A stretch of DNA of 27,711 nt from a virus. The stretch covers positions 1 to 27,711 of IMG/VR virus record IMGVR_UViG_3300012984_000030. One strand, given 5' to 3'. The notes under the pieces were generated by a model. That model had not been told where the DNA came from and did no database searches. It was given only the letters and a program-made list of their open reading frames with translations. Positions 5,312-22,629 of this stretch are shown here, piece after piece; positions within the stretch are counted from its first letter, which is position 1; each line of letters begins with the position of its first letter. Both the position numbers and the translations under genes were made by a program.

Positions 5312-5521
5312 ATGAAAACATTAATTAGTGGTTATTTATTATTGTCATTTATAACATTACAGCCATTGATAGGATATTATGTTTTTAAATGGCTATTAGT
5401 ACCTGTTAATGTTCAGATATCAATGGTCATAGTTTGGGTATTCACTGGTGGCTTTCAATATTTTGTTGCATGCTCGTTAGTTGTTGAGGGCTATAAAAAT
5501 CAAGGAATTGAAATAGGATGA
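5312..5521 (+). CDS. small two-helix membrane protein
   Basis: The protein has 69 residues. Two hydrophobic segments, about 5-30 and 35-57, are separated by a short P-V-N turn. The tail is charged. The start follows the previous stop codon directly, and its own stop overlaps the next ATG (ATGA at 5518-5521). Function is unknown. It may anchor or assist the neighbouring sugar enzymes at the inner membrane, or be an unrelated small gene. Upstream A-rich DNA is typical of starts here, with no Shine-Dalgarno motif. Confidence 0.55.
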   Translation: MKTLISGYLLLSFITLQPLIGYYVFKWLLVPVNVQISMVIVWVFTGGFQYFVACSLVVEGYKNQGIEIG

Positions 5522-6129
5522 TATATCTTTCAATCTGCATACCATACCTTCAAGAATCAAAGAGCATTGCTCACTTTGCAAATATTAAGTCATTACTTGC
5601 ACCGCAATTAACTGATGAAGTCGAGATAGTATCAGACGATAGAGGCCGACATATTCCAACGGGGACGAAAAGAACAGATATGTATGCAAAAGCGAATGGA
5701 CTTTATGTATGTTCAGTCGATTGTGATGATTGGGTATCACATGATTATGTGAGTGAGATTTTAATGGCTATTAAAAATAATATGCCAGACGTTGTAACCT
5801 TTGATGGCATCTATACTGAAAATGGACGAAATCATGTCGATTGGTCTATAAAATTAGGAGAGAAATACGAGGCCAGACATGATGCAGCTAACGGAGGGAA
5901 ATATATGTTCTTTCGTTTCCCTAATCACTTAACAGCGATGAAGAAAGAACTAGCTACAAGGTTCCCATTCCCTCCAAAGTGGCAAGGAGAGGATTTCGAT
6001 TGGTGTAAGATGATTAATGATGCAAGGCAAATTAATGGGATATGGCAATCAGGGCCTAATTGTATTTTAAAGACAGAAATTCATATTTATAAGCAGCTTT
6101 ACCATTACATTTATTTGACCGCAAAATGA
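5518..6129 (+). CDS. family-2-like glycosyltransferase
   Basis: The protein has 203 residues. The start Y-L-S-I-C-I-P-Y is the classical first strand of GT2 enzymes. E-I-V-S-D-D-R-G at 36-43 binds the nucleotide. V-D-C-D-D-W at 67-72 is the DXD-type metal site, preceded by the helix with K-A-N-G-L-Y. A later G-E-D-F-D-W matches the catalytic-base region (ED motif). It is a minimal GT-A enzyme without a membrane anchor. Both ends overlap neighbours by ATGA (5518 and 6126), so it is translated within the island operon. The acceptor cannot be deduced. Confidence 0.85.
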   Translation: MIYLSICIPYLQESKSIAHFANIKSLLAPQLTDEVEIVSDDRGRHIPTGTKRTDMYAKANGLYVCSVDCDDWVSHDYVSEILMAIKNNMPDVVTFDGIYTENGRNHVDWSIKLGEKYEARHDAANGGKYMFFRFPNHLTAMKKELATRFPFPPKWQGEDFDWCKMINDARQINGIWQSGPNCILKTEIHIYKQLYHYIYLTAK

Positions 6130-6251
6130 TTATACCAATATGGCTTTTTATAGTAATGATTTGTTGTACAATTTTCACAATTTATTGTATAACACAAGCT
6201 ATAAAAGAAATAATTCAAGAAGAGCAAAATGATTCAAATCCCAACAGTTAA
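6126..6251 (+). CDS. 41-residue single-pass membrane microprotein
   Basis: This small gene begins in an ATGA overlap with the preceding glycosyltransferase. It ends 23 bases inside the next gene, in another frame. The protein is M-I-I-P-I-W-L-F followed by a hydrophobic segment (about residues 3-24) and a charged tail with K-E-I-I-Q-E-E. Without it there would be a 99-base gap between tightly packed genes, which supports its reality. No function is known. The topology fits a small membrane-associated regulator or anchor. Confidence 0.5.
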   Translation: MIIPIWLFIVMICCTIFTIYCITQAIKEIIQEEQNDSNPNS

Positions 6252-8975: not shown

Positions 8976-9225
8976 ATCAATCATTACCGGATGGTGGCGG
9001 TTTTTATTTCGTAAAAAATCACCAAGGGCTAAAGATAGACTTACTATGTGTTCAATGTGTGAACTAAGGAAAGGTAGATTTTGCGGGGTTTGTTGGTGCG
9101 AATTGGATGCTTTAGCCGAATTAGATCCTGAAGAATTAGGGGTTTGTAAACATCCTGACGGATCTCAGTGGACAATAATTGACAAGTTCCATAACTATTT
9201 AAAAAATCAAAACGGCCTATCCTGA
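8950..9225 (+). CDS. small zinc-binding Cys-rich protein (DUF6171-like)
   Basis: The protein has 91 residues. After a basic N-terminus with an aromatic stretch (W-W-R-F-L-F), a metal site is formed by Cys34 and Cys37 (C-S-M-C), Cys45, Cys48 and Cys50 (C-G-V-C-W-C), and Cys66 (C-K-H-P), ending in Q-W. This C-x2-C, C-x2-C-x-C, C-x-P, W order resembles small rubredoxin-like proteins that I know as DUF6171, from memory. The function is unknown. The start overlaps FkbM by 26 bases. The stop codon lies in the loop of the terminator hairpin that closes the island segment. Confidence 0.6.
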   Translation: MKTLFTHVKSIITGWWRFLFRKKSPRAKDRLTMCSMCELRKGRFCGVCWCELDALAELDPEELGVCKHPDGSQWTIIDKFHNYLKNQNGLS

Positions 9226-12978: not shown

Positions 12979-15890
12979 AAAGAATATTTTTATTTTTAAT
13001 GCTAATGCCTTTTTTGGCGATAGGTCAAAAAACAGTCATCCAATTACAGACTCAAAATAATAGCCAGATAAAAAACATGGGAACGTCTCAATTAAGATCG
13101 TTCAAAATGTATGATAGTCTTATTCAGAGTACTCCTAATTTATTAGGTTCTTATGCTAACCCAAGCTGGATAACATCATTAGCAAATACAAAAATTACAG
13201 GTCTTGGCTCACTAGCTACTTTAAATGCTATCAACCCAACTGCAAATATTACTGGATGGCCAGCTAATTCATCAGGAGCACTGACAAATAATGGATCAGG
13301 TGTATTGTCATGGGTTAATTATGTTACATCTGCATCGCCACCAACCACAGGCGCATTCTTTTTGCGCGGTAACGGTTCTGGAGGATTTACAAATTTAGTT
13401 TCACCCTCAGATGGCCAGTTAATTAGAAAAGTTGCTGGCCCCGATTATGACAATAGTGGGATTAGTTCGGATGGGACAACTGCTACTTTCGGAGCAGTTC
13501 CAAATTTACCTTCTCAAACAACTAATAAGTTTTTTGCTTCTCCAAACGGAAGTTCTGGAGTGCCTTCATTTAGGGCAATCGTTGCTGCGGATATCCCTAC
13601 ATTAAATCAAAATACTAGCGGCAGTGCTGCAACTTTATCTCCGGGTAGAAATATAAACGGCGTTTTGTTTGATGGATCTGGAAATATTTCGGTCAATCTT
13701 AACAATGCTTTATCTGTAGATAATAGTTCGCTTCAACTAAACTCAGGCACAACTTTCGATGGAAGTGCAGTGAGGACGATATCTGTTAAGGCTGGAGGTG
13801 TTACAAATGCAATGCTTGCCGGTTCAATATCCGATGGAAATCTGGCTACATCTTACATAAAGGCAGATGGCACTCGCGCATTCACCGGCGATCAATCGCT
13901 TGGTGGTTTTAAAGTAACTAATGTAAAAGAGCTTGATATTACCGGAACGGCAGGTGCAGGATTTGTAAATTTAATTTCTCAGAGTTCCAATCCTTCACAA
14001 CCTTCTGGTTCGGTTTCAATATTTTCTAACAGTGGTAATCATCTTTCGTGGATGACTCCTTCCGATGCGTTCTCAAGGACTTTATCAGCGGGAACACTTA
14101 CTGCAAATAGAACCTACACTCTTCGCGATTTTAGCGGATCATTTTTAATTGACAATGGAACTAATACGTTAAGCGGAGCAACAACAATCACAAGCAATGC
14201 AGGTAATGGTCTTTTGTTCAACGGAACATGGACCGCGAGTGCCAACAATCAATATGGGATTAAGATCGATCAAACAATTACAAGCAGAGTTAATTCTGGT
14301 GATGCAGTGGTTGGTAATTATTTCAATACGACTTTCAACATCAATTCAACGTCGATTGACGCTGCAGGCGCAGTGTTCGATTATAATCCTATTCAACAAG
14401 GTGGAATAACTGCTACCAACAATACTACTAATGGTAATACGTGTGCAGGCATGACCATTACTACTTATACTGGTGTAGCACCAGCATCAACCACTGGAAG
14501 TGGTACCGGTGCGCTGTTTACCGTGATAGTGAATAGTGCAACCACGTTCACATCTATAACTGTTACAACTCCGGGTAGTGGCTATAAAGTAGGAGATCAA
14601 ATTACTTTCAATGGTAGTCAGTTTGGCTCTGGTAGTGGATCAAATATTCTAGTGATCACCGGCGTTTCAGGACAAACACTTGGCACTAAAGCTTCTGTAC
14701 TTAGGTTGATTAATAGATCACCATCATCATTCGGAGGAAGCACTTGGAACTATATTAATTTTGAAGAGGGCACAGGTGAAGTAATTGGATCAATACGCGC
14801 ACATGGCGGAGCAGGTGGAAGATCTATTGCTTTATTTGCCGGAACAGGAAGCACAGTATTCTCAACTGATGGGGCAACGTTAACTATACCTATTAATGTT
14901 AGCATGACCTCTACGGCATCATTAGGTAGTGTGTCTACAACTTCTGGAACTTTTACTTCATTCGTAACCTCCAGTGCAGTATCTACAGGAAGCGGATCAA
15001 CATTTGATAATACTAATTCTGCTTTTCATCATTCAGGCAATAAATCTGGATCACTTGTAGTTAATAACTCTGTTTTTGGTTCTTTCACCGCCAAGCCTAC
15101 AATAAGTACAGGTTTGGTAAATACTCTAGGTGCAATTACTGGCGGGTCAGGATACACCAACGGGACTTATAATTCAGTGGCTTCAACGGGGGGAACGGGA
15201 AGTGGTCTTAATATTAATGTTACTGTCTCAGGCGGAGCTGTAACTGCTGTAACTGTTTCCTCAAGGGGAACCGGATACGCGGTTGGTGATGTCATTAGCG
15301 CACCTGCTGCTAGTATAGGTGGAACAGGTTCCGGTTTCAGTGTTCCAGTTTCAACAATTGATTTTTCTGAAGTATTAGTTGCAGGTTACACCTATGTTCC
15401 GTCACAAAGTGGAGCTTCATCGGCTAACTCTTTTTATGGATTCTATGGCAAACCTACTTATAATCTAACCGGTGCATTTACAGGTAAAATTGCAGGAATA
15501 TGGTGGGACCCTACAGTTACATCAAACACTGGAACGTCTTATAGTTTTGTAGCAACACAAGCATCTACACTGGGAGGTACAGGAACTTCATCTCCATTAT
15601 CAAGCTGGGATGTAAACGGTAGTGAAGGGAATGCAATTGCAACAAGTACAGGTAATCTAACTCTAGACGCTACCAATTACACGGTAATAATTACATCGGG
15701 TACCGGAACGTATACCTTGCCAGCCGCATCCGGTGCAACAAGAAGAATTTATGTATTCGTCAATCAAACCGGATCAGGCAGAACAATTTCAACATATAAA
15801 GATAAAACTGGAAGCTCAGCTACAACTATAGCTGCTAACTCTTCCCTGGTAATTCAAAGCGATGGTTCTAACTGGTATCAAACAAACTAA
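12975..15890 (+). CDS. long tail-fibre-like protein with a Sec signal peptide
   Basis: The protein has 971 residues. Start at ATG 12975 is chosen over ATG 12951 because it overlaps the previous stop (ATGA) and gives a clean signal peptide: M-K-R, a hydrophobic core with F-L-F-L-M-L-M-P-F-L, then A-I-G-Q (residues 15-18). The body is Ser/Thr/Gly/Asn-rich beta structure typical of fibres, with many T-x-T-x-x-T-L motifs. About residues 500-570 and 720-795 contain similar G-S-G-Y/V-G-D-x-I units (finding given separately). The final 80 residues resemble receptor-binding C-terminal beta domains: Y-T-L-P-A-A-S-G-A near 915 and S-D-G-S-N-W-Y at the end. It may bind the host or be displayed on its surface. 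I see no DGR. Confidence 0.8.
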   Translation: MKRIFLFLMLMPFLAIGQKTVIQLQTQNNSQIKNMGTSQLRSFKMYDSLIQSTPNLLGSYANPSWITSLANTKITGLGSLATLNAINPTANITGWPANSSGALTNNGSGVLSWVNYVTSASPPTTGAFFLRGNGSGGFTNLVSPSDGQLIRKVAGPDYDNSGISSDGTTATFGAVPNLPSQTTNKFFASPNGSSGVPSFRAIVAADIPTLNQNTSGSAATLSPGRNINGVLFDGSGNISVNLNNALSVDNSSLQLNSGTTFDGSAVRTISVKAGGVTNAMLAGSISDGNLATSYIKADGTRAFTGDQSLGGFKVTNVKELDITGTAGAGFVNLISQSSNPSQPSGSVSIFSNSGNHLSWMTPSDAFSRTLSAGTLTANRTYTLRDFSGSFLIDNGTNTLSGATTITSNAGNGLLFNGTWTASANNQYGIKIDQTITSRVNSGDAVVGNYFNTTFNINSTSIDAAGAVFDYNPIQQGGITATNNTTNGNTCAGMTITTYTGVAPASTTGSGTGALFTVIVNSATTFTSITVTTPGSGYKVGDQITFNGSQFGSGSGSNILVITGVSGQTLGTKASVLRLINRSPSSFGGSTWNYINFEEGTGEVIGSIRAHGGAGGRSIALFAGTGSTVFSTDGATLTIPINVSMTSTASLGSVSTTSGTFTSFVTSSAVSTGSGSTFDNTNSAFHHSGNKSGSLVVNNSVFGSFTAKPTISTGLVNTLGAITGGSGYTNGTYNSVASTGGTGSGLNINVTVSGGAVTAVTVSSRGTGYAVGDVISAPAASIGGTGSGFSVPVSTIDFSEVLVAGYTYVPSQSGASSANSFYGFYGKPTYNLTGAFTGKIAGIWWDPTVTSNTGTSYSFVATQASTLGGTGTSSPLSSWDVNGSEGNAIATSTGNLTLDATNYTVIITSGTGTYTLPAASGATRRIYVFVNQTGSGRTISTYKDKTGSSATTIAANSSLVIQSDGSNWYQTN

Positions 15891-21849: not shown

Positions 21850-22484
21850 GCGAATTGTTTTTCAACGAATAAATTGTAATCGTTCCATAAATGCTGAAAA
21901 TCGTTCATTTTCTTTCCTTTCCGAAGCATCAGATATTTTCCCATTAGCTCCTCATGATTAAAAATTGAACCGTTCATTTCAATAAATTCTTTGAGTCCGT
22001 CCACGCCCTGAATTCTGTATTTAGTTGAATGCAATTCTTTTGGGTGAATGATTATGTAATTGTCAGATTTTAATCCGAGTATTTTTGTGCCATTCTTTTC
22101 ATCTTCGTTTCGTTTCCCTTCGTTTCCCTTCGTTTCAGGCCGACCATTGACTGACAAATGACCGTCATCTGACTGACTAATGTCAGGGTATTGACTTTTC
22201 ATTGCTCGCAAACGCTGGCCAAAATTTGGAATATTCAAATAATCCTTTCCTTCAATTGAATATTTTTTGATTATTCCAACCTTAACACATTCAATCAACC
22301 AAGCTCCGATAGACGGGGCTTCACGTAAAGGAAAAAGAGCGGCCTTTAAAAGTTTTTCATTGGCGGTATAATTACCGAAGTCATCAGCCTTCATTATAAG
22401 GCGAGTAAAAAATACTTCCGCTCCTAAAGAAAGTTTATCAATTGCTTCCGATGTAGTCCAATCTCTTAGCACACGATTTGGCAT
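21846..22484 (-). CDS. phage replication initiator (replisome organiser-like)
   Basis: The protein has 212 residues with the start at ATG 22484, which gives M-P-N-R-V-L-R and leaves the U-run of the leader directly upstream. The longer ATG at 22508 would place its start inside the attenuator hairpin. The N-terminal half (residues ~1-90) is typical of phage organiser proteins: W-T-T-S-E-A-I-D-K-L-S, F-F-T-R-L-I-M-K-A-D-D-F-G-N-Y, then a winged-helix-like region ending N-I-P-N-F-G-Q-R. A polar linker (about 97-128) overlaps repeated DNA. The C-terminal half probably contacts the helicase. It is the first gene of the replication operon. Confidence 0.75.
   Translation of the reverse strand: MPNRVLRDWTTSEAIDKLSLGAEVFFTRLIMKADDFGNYTANEKLLKAALFPLREAPSIGAWLIECVKVGIIKKYSIEGKDYLNIPNFGQRLRAMKSQYPDISQSDDGHLSVNGRPETKGNEGKRNEDEKNGTKILGLKSDNYIIIHPKELHSTKYRIQGVDGLKEFIEMNGSIFNHEELMGKYLMLRKGKKMNDFQHLWNDYNLFVEKQFA
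22104..22195. other. candidate origin iterons inside the initiator gene
   Basis: Within the linker-coding part lie two tandem CGTTTCCCTT units (22111-22130) flanked by more CGTTTC. Next to them is a 48-bp cluster of eight TGAC or GTCA motifs (22148-22195), including the palindrome ATGAC-C-GTCAT at 22158-22168 and CTGAC/GTCAG at 22169-22186. Direct repeats in the middle of an initiator gene are how lambda O-type origins are organised. The repeats also encode a low-complexity linker, so they could alternatively be drift. Confidence 0.4.
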
Positions 22485-22562
22485 AAAAAAAATACCCAAC
22501 TCCCACAATGGAGACCCAGTCGAACTTTTAGAAAGCTCTTTTTGGCATTGCAGAAAGTTGGG
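22485..22562 (-). terminator. attenuator-type terminator hairpin before the initiator start codon
   Basis: On the minus strand CCCAACT (22562-22556) pairs with AGTTGGG (22501-22495), and inside it CAATG (22550-22546) pairs with CATTG (22510-22506), with internal loops. Eight T residues (22492-22485) follow, and the ATG begins at 22484 without a gap. The loop includes 22511-22519, which can instead pair upstream with 22584-22592 over 9 bp. Confidence 0.6.
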
Positions 22563-22598
22563 ATGTTTTTAATATTTTCATAACTGAGTCTCTAATAA

Positions 22599-22629
22599 CA
22601 AAAGTAATAATTCTTATCACATCACAAAA
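22599..22629 (-). promoter_or_regulatory. probable Bacteroidota-type promoter for the initiator leader
   Basis: On the minus strand the -33 region TTTTG (22629-22625) is followed after 18 bases by TACTTTTG (22606-22599), an exact TAnnTTTG. Transcription would start close to 22592, giving a leader of about 108 bases before the initiator ATG. The spacer is a little shorter than the usual 19-21. Together with the terminator downstream this supports a separately controlled transcript. Confidence 0.55.

Follow-up and report, generated by a model that had tools for sequence, protein, structure and literature searches.

The replication initiator gene in the stretch of viral DNA analysed here (IMG/VR record IMGVR_UViG_3300012984_000030, positions 1 to 27,711, hereafter the window) is preceded by a leader RNA of about 110 nt whose pseudoknot structure we regard as near certain. 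The leader appears to belong to a class of cis-acting leader RNAs that is widespread in phages of Bacteroidota and seems to be undescribed. We collected 55 distinct phage leaders that share a common plan of promoter, 5' hairpin, second hairpin, U-tract and ATG. The leader RNA probably gates the expression of phage replication and DNA-handling genes.

Promoter, gene and fold in the window

A preliminary description had placed a TTTTG-18-TACTTTTG promoter, a terminator-like hairpin with U8 and an ATG without a gap on the minus strand, and these coordinates proved correct (Table 1). Judged from the sequence, the two promoter elements with their 18-nt spacer match the Bacteroidota -33/-7 consensus, and TTG-N17-23-TAnnTTTG likewise occurs in six of ten relatives. 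In Flavobacterium promoters the G of TAnnTTTG is at -5 (PMC6847099), and the +1 of the window leader would therefore fall at about 22594-22592, which fits the start near 22592 suggested earlier. From this predicted +1 the leader runs on the minus strand to the U8 tract, with the ATG at 22484 following directly. A Pfam search with the initiator gene of the window gave no match. Just upstream of the leader promoter, at 22805-22701 on the minus strand, lies a 34-codon ORF, MEEIISGFNRIKQLRKSTGYGSGSGDGSGSGYGS and a stop, with a Gly-Ser/Tyr/Asp repeat.

Table 1. Features of the leader and its gene in the window, with the basis for each.
Feature	Position	Strand	Basis or remark
Promoter -33 element TTTTG	22625..22629	-	sequence
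Promoter -7 element TACTTTTG, TAnnTTTG type	22599..22606	-	sequence; consensus PMC6847099
Predicted transcription start	22592..22594	-	G of TAnnTTTG = -5, PMC6847099
S1 5' strand GAGACTCAGTT	22582..22592	-	5' end of predicted transcript
A-rich linker ATGAAAATATTAAAAACAT	22563..22581	-	relatives have AAAACATT at the equivalent place
P2 (terminator stem) 5' strand	22546..22562	-	folding
P3 hairpin, 22538-22532 with 22528-22522, loop CTA	22522..22538	-	folding
S1 3' strand GACTGGGTCTC, bulge between P3 and P2	22511..22521	-	covariation in relatives
P2 (terminator stem) 3' strand	22495..22510	-	folding
U8 tract adjoining start codon	22485..22492	-	sequence; feature shared by relatives
Replication initiator gene, 212 aa	21846..22484	-	phrog_1408 replication initiation protein, E 2e-12

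A helix of 9 bp with one G-U pair, GAGACTCAG (22592-22584) with CTGGGTCTC (22519-22511), had been noted as crossing the terminator stem. We recovered it as the core of a longer pairing, S1, of 11 bp with two G-U pairs (22592-22582 with 22521-22511) and a duplex energy of -15.8 kcal/mol. The 3' strand of S1 exactly fills the gap from the end of P3 to the 3' strand of P2, and P2 and P3 fold at -22.5 kcal/mol even with this bulge held unpaired. The helix had been left as either a competitor of the terminator or a pseudoknot; S1 and P2/P3 share no nucleotides and therefore co-form as a pseudoknot, in which S1 occupies the bulge of the terminator hairpin, rather than making a switch of exclusive helices. 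Folding of the 108-nt leader gave z = -2.8, with 1 of 200 shuffles equally stable, and the combined score of the window leader was reached by 3 of 4,000 dinucleotide shuffles. Among 75 promoter-like motifs in the whole window, the structure scan described below found one such structure, namely the leader at 22629-22485. A default terminator scan missed the P2 hairpin because of its long loop.

Within the leader, at 22581-22528 on the minus strand, there is a short ORF, MKILKTSQLSAMPKRAF and a stop, and similar ORFs beginning MKTLK or MKTFK lie in the leaders of L003, L073, L182, L288 and L334. The ATGAAAA start of this short ORF is present in only 8 of the 55 leaders. An attenuator working through a leader peptide of the MKILKTSQLSAMPKRAF kind was rejected, as no short ORF is conserved over the helices and such an ORF is missing from most leaders.

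Relatives of the leader and covariation of S1

Relatives of the initiator in IMG/VR fell into two groups, those with the gene in an operon and those with their own TAnnTTTG-like promoter. Initiator genes inside an operon had no leader directly before them, whereas the own-promoter initiators showed the same architecture with almost no common sequence (L002, L003, L004/L005, L008, L009-L012, L016, L019 and L073). At L061 the architecture was recognised by eye, and at L013 the leader stands at the operon head, one gene upstream of the initiator. A structure scan was assembled from the promoter -7 box, P1 (the 5' hairpin), S1, P2 and a T-rich tail. Over 1.38 Mb of related loci it returned 14 leader matches of at least 52, some of which stem from near-identical relatives; no score exceeded 47 when dinucleotide-shuffled sequence of the same total length was scanned. 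Some matches of 50-54 fell within genes in AT-rich cultured phages, so that the score alone is no proof for a single locus, and a position upstream of a gene together with the A-rich linker is needed. About 20 phage contigs, most covered nearly in full, yielded 16 gene-adjacent matches of at least 50; at least 10 of these precede phrog_1408-type initiators or DUF6291 genes, for which the contigs had been chosen. A second leader of L016 lies before a helicase-methyltransferase gene, and many stronger examples were found with relatives of that gene. One such relative, L154 (IMGVR_UViG_3300049846_000942), has one in-frame TAA in its match, and near the replication genes of L016 a 207-aa ORF (5509-6132) contains many NARVGD-type, hexapeptide-repeat-like repeats.

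Because the bias of gene choice had to be lowered, viral contigs were searched with a pattern that ignores S1, namely TATATTTG, then AAAACATT, then GCCC. This gave 74 stretches. With relaxed settings 61 of them show the fold, some 50 strongly; the remaining matches are mostly chance-like and in coding sequence. In 395 Bacteroidota genomes the pattern was at chance level (3 matches for each of two versions, at or below the reversed control), and initiator homologues in bacterial genomes (L098-L103) have no such leader, on which grounds a host origin was rejected. BLASTN with two leader sequences against phage and plasmid records gave no match, and cultured carriers were reached through protein searches. 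No credible leader was seen in vB_RanS_PJN03 or in the initial 50 kb of either Cellulophaga phi13:2 or phi19:3. Rfam 15 yielded no credible match scoring close to or above the gathering threshold, in five leader-bearing loci none of its families reached E 0.5, and the part of the literature that was searched does not describe the RNA. An HDV-like ribozyme, in which P1 opens at the cleavage site and a P4 / J4-2 catalytic segment separates P1 3' from P2 3', was set aside because most members enclose the 5' strand of S1 in a hairpin loop, type-A leaders have no segment between S1 3' and P2 3', and there was no Rfam match; C4 antisense RNA (RF01695) was rejected on the same five loci and on the window, which has no match to it at the gathering score.

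About half of the 55 leaders came from homology or structure and the others from the pattern blind to S1, and the structure-scan score was a selection criterion for part of the set. Throughout the class, the loop of the 5' hairpin pairs over 6-11 bp, as S1, with a bulge or loop of the second hairpin. In most leaders of initiator relatives the 5' strand of S1 is inside the loop of a short P1 starting at about +1. In the window, where the 5' strand of P1 (22597-22594) would not lie downstream of +1, P1 is probably missing, as it is in a few others; 5 of the 55 leaders keep at most 2 bp of it. The minimal forms (L199, L212 and the first leader of L339) consist of two hairpins with fully complementary loops of 7-8 nt, that is, kissing loops. 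Sequence conservation is limited to a short motif in the linker, AAAACATT, and to part of the S1 positions, and does not extend to all members.

Covariation in related leaders had been proposed as a check on the crossing helix, and compensatory changes were indeed found. In alignment A2, made from 22 type-A leaders by MAFFT on sequence, 94.4% of cells pair. Covariation was 0.383. Shuffles gave 0.163 +/- 0.011, with none of 500 reaching the observed value, and sliding the partners gave no more than 0.064; the slide control is inflated by a structure reading taken mainly from the first row, which does not inflate the compensatory counts. The 8-bp core of S1 (columns 24-31 with 100-107) is unbroken in all 22 leaders, and four of its eight pairs have both sides changed in 8-12 sequences each. 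L292 and L300, 97.2% identical outside S1, carry GTGGAAAC/GTTTCCAC and GTGAGAAC/GTTCTCAC, each complementary, and the same is true of GTCGAAGC/GCTTCGAC and GTAGTATC/GATACTAC in L352 and L315 (93.5% identical outside S1). Chance structure, in whose favour stand the three shuffles that attain the window score, has a practically negligible probability in view of 55 distinct leaders, the pattern test blind to S1 and the covariation, which refutes it for the class.

S1, with an entropy of 0.71, does not stand out clearly from P1 (0.60) or P3 (0.65), and its variability is compatible with neutral compensation as well as with selection for specificity. One S1 word, GCTTCGAC/GTCGAAGC, recurs in unlike leaders (L009, L013, L304, L344, L325, L352, L309 and L367:9082), with the strands sometimes in swapped places. 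Contig L339 has two leaders, at 1793 and 8299, both before NUMOD4/HNH-like genes; their S1 pairs, GGACGAG/CTCGTCC and GCTCGTCC/GGACGAGC, are reciprocal, and mutual pairing in trans would be possible.

Possible modes of action

Over the 55 leaders, positions 1-9 downstream of P2 are 75-85% T, beyond which the sequence is A-rich up to the ATG. TTTT lies within 14 nt of P2 in 52 of the 55, including 27 of the 28 pattern-search leaders, for which there was no selection for T. TTTTT occurs at -25 to -1 before the ATG in 42 of 55 leaders compared with 9.8% of 1,124 other ORFs. With a median P2 stability of -30 kcal/mol, G-C pairs at the base of the hairpin and the U-tract directly after it, the leaders have the makings of an intrinsic terminator. 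The distance from P2 to the ATG varies between 6 and 28 nt (median 12) and the U-tract stays adjoining P2, from which we infer that termination is favoured over a role in translation only. Our preferred reading, held with moderate confidence, is that the leader may be a conditional transcription attenuator of the gene behind it, with the S1 contact modulating it. The attenuator reading of the preliminary description is retained to this extent, given the terminator-like end directly before the initiator and the T-rich sequence after the hairpin; its counter-transcript of the pT181 type is not, as set out below.

Sequence and covariation show that the leader takes up the 5' UTR, beginning near the predicted +1 and ending at the ATG, and that it folds as a pseudoknot in which an early segment (the 5' hairpin loop in most members, the bare 5' end in the window) pairs with an 8-11 nt bulge or loop of P2. 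In the proposed attenuator, P2 and the U-tract would form a conditional intrinsic terminator, and the S1 contact might set the extent or speed of P2 formation or present the fold to a factor. RNA polymerase would either stop before the ATG or read through into the initiator gene; translation of the longer transcripts would then start out from the A-rich sequence preceding the ATG. Against attenuation, it should be considered that a terminator hairpin with a long, structured loop is non-canonical, that the U-tract preceding the ATG could serve translation instead, and that no alternative antiterminator fold is apparent in the leader.

The alternative that survives best, which we nevertheless consider unlikely, is control of translation, with the pseudoknot blocking or timing ribosome binding, or the U-rich stretch aiding it, and no termination. 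The end of P2 at 6-28 nt before the ATG is compatible with this, as is the finding that structure close to the start codon reduces translation in F. johnsoniae (PMC6847099); the U-tract, however, adjoins P2 in nearly all leaders at a variable distance from the ATG, and the stretch adjoining the ATG is free and A-rich. It is quite unlikely that the leader chiefly serves as a stable small RNA of 92-146 nt, with other leaders of matching S1 or host RNAs or proteins as its targets in trans and the gene reached by read-through. The leader's own promoter and terminator-like end would suit such an RNA, as would near-identical leaders that differ in S1 yet stay complementary, S1 differences among leaders of one phage, and the reciprocal pair of L339. 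S1 is, however, paired inside its own RNA and hence hidden, and we keep the trans model at low probability because the entropy of S1 is not clearly above that of P1 and P3. A further idea, which we hold to be improbable, is that the leaders are orthogonal 'address' RNAs: each would have its own S1 code, the terminated leader would act in trans on leaders of the same code, Bacteroidota phages would thereby count genome copies or exclude relatives, and selection would keep changing the code. Were S1 an interchangeable code, it could provide orthogonal RNA regulators for Bacteroidota.

Very improbable is an RNA that shields the 5' end against nuclease attack or that works on RNA polymerase in antitermination, as the put RNA of HK022 does. 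The fold does begin at about +1 and head transcription units, but a U-tract right behind it would not be expected and there is no conserved sequence core except the linker. In pT181-type and related plasmid attenuators a leader structure and terminator stand before the replication initiator, as P2 and U8 do before the initiator start codon here. An attenuator of this type run by a counter-transcript is extremely improbable, however, as a search of ten leaders and their flanks for Bacteroidota-type promoters only (TAnnTTTG with a spaced -33 element) found none opposing, the helices are compatible rather than mutually exclusive, and many carrier genes are not initiators.

Short loop-loop pairings with complementarity kept also control replication in ColE1 (RNAI/RNAII) and through the IncI repZ leader; the ColE1 pairing joins two RNAs and the repZ leader acts on translation, and neither is known to have a terminator adjoining the ATG, unlike the phage leaders here. 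T4 gene 32, with its pseudoknot, and the purine and guanidine-II riboswitches, with their loop-loop contacts, likewise have folds of this kind in the 5' leader. Riboswitches have a sequence-conserved binding core, whereas the phage leaders have only the AAAACATT linker and some S1 positions. The immunity leader of satellite phage P4 (CI RNA, seqA/seqC) has complementary segments in one transcript and acts by premature transcription termination (PMC4825925). It is similar in being a phage leader before replication genes with complementary segments and a terminator-like site; here, in contrast, the complementary segments pair in cis, as a pseudoknot built around a single terminator that immediately precedes the ATG. 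A processed antisense RNA is not known here, there is no Rfam match, and at least one carrier, snusmum9-1, is from a group described as virulent (PMC7077304). STAXI, one of the motifs of Weinberg et al. 2010 (PMC2864571), consists of pseudoknots repeated in tandem and resembles our leaders in lying near genes for DNA-handling proteins; the tandem repeat sets it apart, and no Rfam model was found at E 0.5 on five leader loci.

Carrier genes and cultured phages

The initiators behind the leaders belong to several families (phrog_1408, Lin1244_N/phrog_2562 and phrog_428/DnaD-like). Other genes in this place encode DUF6291 proteins, probable initiators by their position, primase, SNF2 and DEAD helicases, N6/N4 DNA methyltransferases, NUMOD4-HNH, GIY-YIG and PDDEXK nucleases, KilA-N proteins and orphans of 64-71 aa. 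Since the leader precedes a replication-starting gene in unrelated phages, it may be a shared switch timing DNA synthesis. Identical or near-identical leader cores stand before different genes (L284/L341 versus L324/L343; L300 versus L305/L318), so leader and gene would be exchangeable as modules. The leader stands at the start of a transcription unit even where it is separated from the initiator by another gene (L013, FCV-1). The class adds a covariation-supported structured RNA, outside Rfam, to Bacteroidota phages, in which little is known of gene control.

Cultured phages carry two or three copies, which makes the mechanism directly testable. Flavobacterium phage FCV-1 (KY979235.1) has two leaders. 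The one at 35864 precedes a 69-aa gene, behind which lies an initiator-like gene (phrog_270, DnaD-like), and the one at 40353 precedes an HNH gene; the first is shared by about 70 records of Flavobacterium phages. In another Flavobacterium phage, vB_FspS_snusmum9-1 (MN812237.1), there are three leaders, at 9082, 13023 and 14058, with different S1. The leader at 13023, before a NUMOD4 endonuclease gene, scores only 47 and has the linker motif. The leader at 14058 is 70.7% identical to the FCV-1 leader, and their S1 differ at four of eight positions, all compensated (GTGGAACG/CGTTCCAC against GTAGAGAG/CTCTCTAC). The words hairpin, terminator, promoter and RNA are all absent from the paper describing the snusmum9-1 group (PMC7077304). 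In the deposited MN812237.1 record (L367), the CDS gp041 overlaps promoter and leader at 14006-14101 and is probably a spurious annotation, and the annotated start of gp032 (9166) seems to lie within a leader.
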